Positions 58,942-60,408 of a stretch of DNA of 64,000 bases are shown piece by piece. The notes beneath the pieces are model-generated. The model was not told the origin of the DNA. It did no database searches and worked only from the letters and a program-made list of their open reading frames with translations. Position 1 is the stretch's first letter; each line of letters starts with the position of its first letter. Location of the stretch: positions 5,849,388 to 5,913,387 of the forward strand of contig NZ_JH976537.1 in the NCBI RefSeq assembly GCF_000309385.1, read 5' to 3'. This stretch comes from Nodosilinea nodulosa PCC 7104. Lineage in GTDB: Bacteria > Cyanobacteriota > Cyanobacteriia > Phormidesmidales > Phormidesmidaceae. A program made the position numbers and the translations under genes.

Positions 58942-59111
58942 CTGGTTGACTGACAAAACCCCTGAAACCCTTATGCTGCCGTAGCCGCCGTAGGTTGTGG
59001 TTGATCGAAGTGTTCGCGTTGGCGACGTCGCCCCTTTGGGGCTAGCGTCTCCAGGGGTGAAAACCCAACACTAGCAAGGGTTTTGTTGGGTTTCCTGCGT
59101 CAACCCAACCT
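58942..59111. repeat. Dispersed palindromic repeat, family A copy 8, left part
   Basis: Starts CTGGTTGACTGACAAAAC and continues to CAACCCAACCT at 59111, where the IS110-type element begins. The right part resumes at 60366. Rejoining them gives CCCAACCTACGGCAG, as in the intact copy at 51390-51512. Confidence 0.85.
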
Positions 59112-59154
59112 TGTATATAAGCGGTACGCCCCTCGGATTTATCCTAAAGGCCTA

Positions 59155-59340
59155 TCGTTGTGGGGAGGACTCCGAACCCAACCTCAAGCTTCCAAGCTTG
59201 CTTCGTAGATTCATCAGAGCCTCCCCACCCCTCAAGCCGTCACCCCAAGCAGCCTGGACAGTATGCTGGGCCACCCTCTAGTAGGAACCCGGATTCCGCA
59301 AGGATAGTGCGCTTGTAGAGTGACTCGGTGACGACAAACA
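59155..59340 (+). ncRNA. Predicted bridge RNA of the IS110-type element
   Basis: Stem 1 pairs GTGGGGAGG plus CTC (59160-59168, 59170-59172) with GAGCCTCCCCAC (59217-59228). Inside it, in order, lie AACCCAACCT (59175-59184), a perfect hairpin CAAGCTT-CC-AAGCTTG (59185-59200) and CTTCGTAG (59201-59208). The first equals the left target (59102-59111); CGTAG is complementary to the right target CTACG. A second structure (CGTCACC near 59238-59244 with GGTGACG near 59328-59334) encloses ACAGTAT (59258-59264), the same as the right end of the element (60359-60365), as a donor guide should be. A right donor guide (GTAGG, 59281-59285) is tentative. Confidence 0.72.
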
Positions 59341-59353
59341 CAGGAGTAGGCTG

Positions 59354-60343
59354 ATGAGTGCATCCCCGATCGCGGTTCCGTTAGGTATCGACATTAGCAA
59401 AGCCAGGTTTGACGTGGCCTTGCTGAAAGAGAGGCATCGCGCGAAACGAGCCAAATTCGACAATACAGCCGCTGGTTTCGACCAGCTCAAGGCGTGGCTG
59501 AGAGCTCAAGCTATTGAGCAGGTCCACGCCTGCCTGGAAGCCACCAACACCTACGGTCATGCCCTAGCGCGCTATCTGCACCACCAGGGCCATCAGGTCA
59601 GTATCGTCAATCCAGCCCGTATCAAAGGCTATGGCAAAAGTCAGCTGAGTCGAACCAAGAATGATGCCGCCGATGCCAGTCTCATCGCCCGCTTTTGTCG
59701 CGATCTCAAACCGACGCTCTGGCACCCCGCCCCTGATGAGGTCGCCACACTCCAGCGGCTCACTCGGCGCTTAGAGGCGCTTGAACAGATGATGACGCAA
59801 GAAAAGAACCGCCGGGAGCTGTGCGACGACGACGAACTCAGGGCCGATATTGACGCTCATATTGAGTTCCTGGAGGCGCAGGAGACGTCGCTAAAAAAGC
59901 GCTTGCAGCAGCTTATTCAAGTCCATGACCGCCTAGCTGAGCAACAGGCCCTCTTGGAATCCATCACCGGCATTGGAACCCAGACCGCGCTCACCGTGCT
60001 CGGCGAGATTGGCTCGATTGAGGTCTTTGGTTCAGCACGCCAATTAGCAGCGTTTGCCGGGCTTACCCCCCAAGAGTTTCAGTCCGGTAGCTCTATCCAC
60101 GGGAAAACCCGGTTGTGCAAGATTGGCCATGCCCGTCTGCGTAAGGCCCTCTATTTCCCAGCCCTCGTGATGATTCGCTATTGCCCTGAAATCCAAGCCT
60201 TTCGCCAACGCCTCCTAGACGCTGGCAAGCAGAAGATGCAAGTCGTCGGTGCCGTTATGCACAAACTCATCCGCATCATCTACGGCGTCTTGTCTTCCGG
60301 GAAAACATTTGACTCCGCTAAATTAGTCTCTCAGAACACTTGA
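59354..60343 (+). CDS. IS110-family transposase/recombinase
   Basis: A 329-residue DEDD recombinase: N-terminal RuvC-like half with Asp in LGIDISKARFDV, Glu in ACLEATNTYGH and Asp residues in KNDAADASLIARF; coiled-coil middle; C-terminal transposase_20 half with SITGIGTQTALTVLGEIG and the putative nucleophilic serine in QEFQSGSSIHGKTR. The start has a GGAG ribosome site 9 nt upstream. No damage is visible, so it is likely active. IS110-family recombinases work with a guide RNA encoded in the element's non-coding end; a candidate lies directly upstream. Confidence 0.95.
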   Translation: MSASPIAVPLGIDISKARFDVALLKERHRAKRAKFDNTAAGFDQLKAWLRAQAIEQVHACLEATNTYGHALARYLHHQGHQVSIVNPARIKGYGKSQLSRTKNDAADASLIARFCRDLKPTLWHPAPDEVATLQRLTRRLEALEQMMTQEKNRRELCDDDELRADIDAHIEFLEAQETSLKKRLQQLIQVHDRLAEQQALLESITGIGTQTALTVLGEIGSIEVFGSARQLAAFAGLTPQEFQSGSSIHGKTRLCKIGHARLRKALYFPALVMIRYCPEIQAFRQRLLDAGKQKMQVVGAVMHKLIRIIYGVLSSGKTFDSAKLVSQNT

Positions 60344-60365
60344 CCTACAGCGACTTAAACAGTAT

Positions 60366-60408
60366 CTACGGCAGTATAAGGGTTTAAAGGGTTTTGTCAG
60401 TCAACCAG
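60366..60408. repeat. Dispersed palindromic repeat, family A copy 8, right part
   Basis: Inverse complement of 58942-58984 with about 39 of 43 positions matching: it begins CTACGGCAGTATAAGGG and ends TTTTGTCAGTCAACCAG. It is the other end of the repeat split by the IS110-type element. Confidence 0.85.

Follow-up and report, generated by a model that had tools for sequence, protein, structure and literature searches.

A cyanobacterial IS621-like element whose predicted bridge-RNA guides fit the dispersed GTAG-tagged repeat that holds it

To date, the bridge-RNA mechanism of IS110 elements and the covariation of guides with their targets have been established by Durrant et al. 2024 (PMC11208160). 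The order of the loops, the junction promoter, the targeting of REP repeats and covariation across thousands of pairs are likewise published (PMC11208160, PMC11208158, PMC11187229, PMC1525189), and knowledge of IS110 elements inserting into REP repeats goes back to Choi et al. 2003 and Tobes and Pareja 2006 (PMC1525189). For the GTAG-tagged REP, 24 families have been published and cyanobacteria are among the listed hosts (PMC3733652). On the bridge RNAs of cyanobacterial IS110 elements we found no paper in the open-access literature.

Here, we describe an IS621-like element of the filamentous cyanobacterium Nodosilinea nodulosa PCC 7104, found in a window of 64,000 nucleotides (the whole stretch of DNA that was analysed). 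It is a natural example of the recently described mechanism, which is itself not new. What we add are new cyanobacterial members and evidence that their guides follow repeat families that are abundant in their own hosts.

The element, its copies and its target repeat

The window carries what is, on well-founded sequence grounds, an intact IS621-like mobile element, whose predicted leader RNA holds guides matching the dispersed repeat in which the element sits. The element, its gene and its target are as follows.

59112..60367, + strand: IS621-like IS110 element, 1256 bp including one copy of the CT core
59354..60343, + strand: transposase, 329 amino acids, with the Pfam domains DEDD_Tnp_IS110 and Transposase_20
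59102..59111, + strand: left target AACCCAAC with core CT, lying outside the element as the 3′ arm of a palindromic repeat with a GTAG tag
60366..60372, + strand: core CT and right target ACGGC, bearing the GTAG tag of the repeat (CTAC on this strand)
Target sequence of the element: AACCCAACCTACGGC

The preliminary description had placed an IS110-type element at 59102-60367. The type was right, but positions 59102-59111 belong to the target and the true element spans 59112-60367; its other statements about the sequence were all recovered where it had placed them. The left end measures 242 bp (59112-59353) and the right end 24 bp (60344-60367), without long terminal inverted repeats, and such an arrangement, in which the end preceding the gene is long and the right end short, is that of the IS621 group. 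The protein falls in the same group: both Pfam domains exceed the curated cut-off, and the closest PDB chains are those of IS621 (2.6e-73) and ISCro4 (4.9e-73), in line with the IS110/IS621-type assignment made earlier. Identity to the IS621 transposase is about 42%, and the DEDD candidates D13, E62, D104 and D107, together with the GSS serines 246-247, align with IS621.

The host genome (6.9 Mb, two contigs, C1 and C2) holds five copies of the element including that of the window, plus a right-end remnant; all six occupy an identical point in one repeat. The copy on C2 differs from the window copy at 5/1256 positions, a second full copy is 90% identical (C1:3398097-3399364), and two further copies are broken by 100-N assembly gaps. 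The solo remnant (C1:1433907-1433953), joined to CTACGGCAG, adds a sixth insertion at this target. At the left junction all five copies read ACCCAACCT followed by TG[T/C]ATATAAG; at the right junction the four readable copies all start with CTAC (CTACG, CTACC, CTACA and CTACA), and the remnant reads CTACG.

When the flanks of the window copy are joined, they align base for base and free of gaps with uninterrupted repeats at other places in the genome. The empty repeat is thus rebuilt, with the CT core (59110-59111 and 60366-60367) common to target and donor and no duplication beyond CT. The site ACCCAACCTAC occurs 54 times in the genome, against 3 for a reversed control pattern. On the opposite strand the repeat has the form GTAG-GTTGGGTT-loop-AACCCAAC with an 8-bp stem, a tag followed by a stem-loop, and since the insertion point lies between the two, the element separates the GTAG tag from the stem. 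The 41-bp sequence at 60368-60408, the right part of the repeat, has at least 14 more occurrences in the genome and an inverted partner near 58948-58984, which indicates that the REP lies within a larger MITE-like unit. The earlier proposal of an insertion in a dispersed repeat is borne out by the rebuilt empty site and by the many copies genome-wide. A literature search with the letters of the repeat returned chance matches only, and none of 8 Y1 transposase loci (0/8) carries the repeat. One of them, a RAYT-like Y1 transposase gene on C2 (570394-570759), has a related repeat on either side in inverted form (GTAGGGTGCAT / ATGCACCCTAC), and the GTAGGGTGCAT type matches the guide of a relative from the same genus (L098).

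A shared site could also arise if homologous recombination had copied the repeat together with its insert, and the dispersed, similar repeats and the two closest element copies differing at only 5 positions would suit such a history. The flanks beyond the short repeat nevertheless differ among copies, the right targets vary after CTAC (CTACG, CTACC, CTACA), and unrelated lineages behave alike on other repeats. We rejected this barely credible origin on these grounds, and retain targeted insertion.

The predicted bridge RNA

Along the left end, the following features were located, together with the donor sequences and a promoter-like box at the right end.

59120..59159, + strand: predicted 5′ stem-loop of the bridge RNA, from the RNA fold of 59120-59340
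59162..59226, + strand: target-binding stem-loop, GGGGAGG (59162-59168) paired with CCTCCCC (59220-59226)
59175..59184, + strand: left target guide AACCCAACCT, 10/10 identical to 59102-59111, covarying among relatives
59185..59200, + strand: hairpin between the target guides, CAAGCT-TCCA-AGCTTG, 6-bp stem and 4-base loop
59201..59208, + strand: right target guide CTTCGTAG, with CGTAG complementary to CTACG (60366-60370) and a single G-U wobble at the next position; covarying among relatives
59258..59264, + strand: left donor guide ACAGTAT, equal to 60359-60365 and invariant in the alignment
59298..59302, + strand: right donor guide GCAAG, pairing with CTTGT across the core and right donor, with one G-U
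59112..59120, + strand: right donor TGTATATAA, adjoining the core; TTGTAT is conserved in relatives and IS621
60359..60365, + strand: left donor ACAGTAT, the same in all copies and in IS621
Donor sequence of the element: ACAGTATCTTGTATATA
60340..60345, + strand: TTGACC, a -35-like box in the right end, which on a circle would lie 17 bp from a core-spanning TATCTT

The target-binding stem-loop folds far better than expected by chance (z = -4.24; 0/200 shuffles as good), and the pairs of the hairpin between the guides are retained in the alignment of relatives. First-order shuffling of the left end produced the left-target 10-mer in 13/20,000 cases, and the 10-mer together with CGTAG at a fitting spacing in 0/20,000; AACCCAACCT itself occurs 3 times in the 64-kb window against 0.07 expected. 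The preliminary description had read the left guide as equal to the left target and CGTAG as pairing with CTACG before a G-U, which we verified base by base, and the order that it gave (stem, left guide, hairpin, right guide, stem) agrees with the layout of the IS621 RNA. Likewise, ACAGTAT at 59258-59264 was confirmed as the last seven bases before the right CT core (60359-60365). The present analysis adds the right donor guide GCAAG, a predicted stem-loop at the 5′ end and a putative promoter at the junction.

For the donor loop, the stretch alone folds no better than shuffles (z = +1.87) and ACAGTAT alone is present in 225/20,000 shuffles, so that the case for the donor guides is one of conservation. 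Besides the invariant ACAGTAT, CAAGG of the right donor guide is invariant in 18 relatives, and IS621 carries TGCAAG where this element has GCAAG. Position 59114 is T in the window and C in the C2 copy, which turns the G-U wobble with GCAAG into a G-C pair. Joining the two ends rebuilds a putative promoter, TTGACC-17-TATCTT, as read from the sequence, and most relatives share this 17-bp junction spacing. We also note that the stop codon TGA of the transposase sits within the TTGACC box.

We also built a covariance model from 18 cyanobacterial sequences, leaving IS621 out. It recovers held-out cyanobacterial relatives (E no higher than 3e-7) and also the IS621 bridge RNA (E = 1.8e-5), the latter where experiments have located that RNA; as the model holds only 11 base pairs, these matches reflect mostly sequence homology. 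The IS621 bridge-RNA sequence that served as yardstick was confirmed through exact matches in E. coli genomes. The same model gave no match on RAYT loci and two other IS110 loci, and an Rfam search of the element region gave none either. RNAalifold on a MAFFT alignment yielded only 11 pairs, some of them implausible, owing to a one-base misalignment of the outer stem from group to group. In single-sequence folds this stem is clearer for most members, while three relatives (L069, L108 and L087) fold otherwise by minimum energy.

Guides and targets among cyanobacterial relatives

Relatives were gathered from genomes by six-frame searches and from plasmids, and both junctions and the target loop were read for each; a peptide-pattern scan of genomes had returned only two close relatives, to which the six-frame searches added more. 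The host genome itself has Nodosilinea and Leptolyngbya-like cyanobacteria as its relatives. Among 13 distinct guides, the mean left match is 7.0/8 with the element's own target and 3.6 with those of others (0/200,000 permutations as good), and the mean right match 3.5/6 against 2.4 (23/200,000 permutations as good). These values are approximate and indicative, since we chose the registers by eye, at the homologous position, and since the guides are interrelated.

Individual cases illustrate this covariation. In one relative the guide GACAGGCCCT equals its left target GACAGGCCCT and the right guide CTAG faces the right target CTAG; two others carry the guides GACGCGCCCT and GACACGCCCT, each identical to its own target, and another has CCCCGCCCCT in both places. 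The guide GGGGTCCCT goes with the target GGGGTCCCT and, on the right, TCGGAG with CTCCGA; finally, TTCACGGCT goes with CTCACGGCT, and TATGAAG with CTTCATA. The preliminary description had held that copies at unrelated sites without matching guide changes would speak against a guide function. All copies of the present element use one site, and in relatives other targets are accompanied by guide changes on both sides.

The transposase alone might recognise the repeat, the match in the left end then being captured target DNA without function. Proteins are known to recognise REP repeats in other IS families (IS3 family, PMC1525189), and the left-end match does copy a common repeat. Against this, the position of the match within the structure, next to the hairpin, is constant, while its sequence follows the target across 13 distinct guides. 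The complementary guide on the right shifts as well (CTCCGA/TCGGAG, CTTCATA/TATGAAG, CTAG/CTAG), and captured DNA would not put a complementary second half 26 bases further on. These two-sided changes led us to reject target choice by the protein alone, a very improbable reading, in favour of guidance by the RNA.

Matching is not always perfect, which counts against guidance by the RNA. The right guide of the 90% copy remains CGTAG, yet its site reads CTACA, and two lineages with the guide GACGCAYCCT have sites reading AACCCAYCCT. The genome of N. nodulosa also holds a second IS621-like lineage of five copies on C1 (L004-L008; 58% protein identity) with the guide GACGCACCCT. The site is AACCCACCCT for four of these copies and AACACACCCT for the fifth, even though the genome offers unoccupied sites that match the guide perfectly, and the same two guide-site mismatches reappear in another genome (L069).

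Two further observations concern C1. A third IS110 lineage, also of five copies (L010-L014), has a left end starting with TTGTATTTTAAG; 4/5 copies lie at GATCCCC-CT and 1/5 at CACTCCC-CT. A degenerate IS621-like copy (C1:5609782-5610738) has an in-frame TAA, the guide GACACGCCCT and the site CACGCCCT.

The sites specified by the guides are repeated in the hosts, with 44 occurrences in G338, 76 in G387 and 10 in G402, and with 9 for the third lineage of the present genome; the control gave 0 in each case. The GTAG tag is not universal, the repeats of G402 and G387 being without it. Cyanobacterial guides of the IS621 group may have been rewritten repeatedly to track REP-like repeats abundant in their hosts while the donor guides stayed fixed, with two lineages (58% protein identity) in one genome aimed at two repeat families, a proposal to which we give an even chance. 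If it is true, these elements would form a natural record of guide retargeting, a layer of parasites upon REP repeats.

Proposed mechanism and comparison with known systems

Almost certainly, this is an IS110 element of the IS621 group in which an RNA from the left end guides the DEDD transposase to a GTAG-tagged repeat. The protein family, the anatomy, the identical insertion sites, the covariation of guides and targets and the rebuilt empty repeat are direct observations. Layout, covariation and homology model all favour the bridge-RNA interpretation that the preliminary description gave to guides matching their own insertion site. By analogy with IS621, the RNA would be expressed and bound by the transposase, and circle formation and catalysis would proceed as in that element.

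In the proposed course, the element would exit as a circle, as IS621 does (PMC11208160, PMC11208158), and the circle would join TTGACC to TATCTT across the core, creating a promoter for the bridge RNA that is absent from the inserted form. The left guide would pair with AACCCAAC-CT on the bottom strand and the right guide with CT-ACG on the top strand, while the donor loop would pair with the joined circle ends ACAGTAT-CT-TGTAT. RNA and transposase would in this way bring repeat and circle together via four short pairings, with strand exchange at CT. Recombination at this core would place the element between the stem and the tag of the repeat and duplicate nothing but CT.

Bridge RNAs are a young natural class of guide RNAs and candidate genome-editing tools. 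The elements described here offer a compact natural series, within one phylum and even one genome, in which the target guides shift on both sides with the repeat and the donor guides remain constant; such a series is useful for guide rules and mismatch tolerance.

Among described systems, IS621 of Escherichia coli shares with our element the transposase fold family, the catalytic positions and a left-end bridge RNA with the target loop followed by the donor loop (PMC11208160; PMC11208158), and the predicted 5′ stem-loop agrees in position with that described for IS621 (PMC11208160). The two also have in common the CT core, the donor ACAGTAT-CT-TGTAT and a right target starting with CTACG, as read in a plasmid copy of IS621, and IS621 likewise inserts in GTAG-tagged REP repeats. 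They differ in protein sequence (about 42% identity), in the left guide (AACCCAACCT here, ATCGGGCCT in IS621), in the repeat, which is unrelated, and in the cyanobacterial host. ISCro4, of solved structure (9t56), is as close as IS621 (E = 4.9e-73), a likeness known here from the protein sequence. ISPa11, ISPpu9 and ISPpu10 (IS110/IS1111) belong to the same transposase family and share repeat targeting and an RNA-guided choice of target (PMC1525189; PMC11187229). ISPa11, however, belongs to the IS1111 type: its RNA follows the gene and its guides come in the reverse order (PMC11187229), whereas here the RNA lies upstream. Finally, the target repeat resembles in form the GTAG-tagged REP of Di Nocera et al. 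2013 (PMC3733652), with which it shares the GTAG end, a short stem and many dispersed copies. Altogether, while the understanding of the mechanism is unchanged, the association of IS621 with REP repeats is extended from enterobacteria to cyanobacteria.
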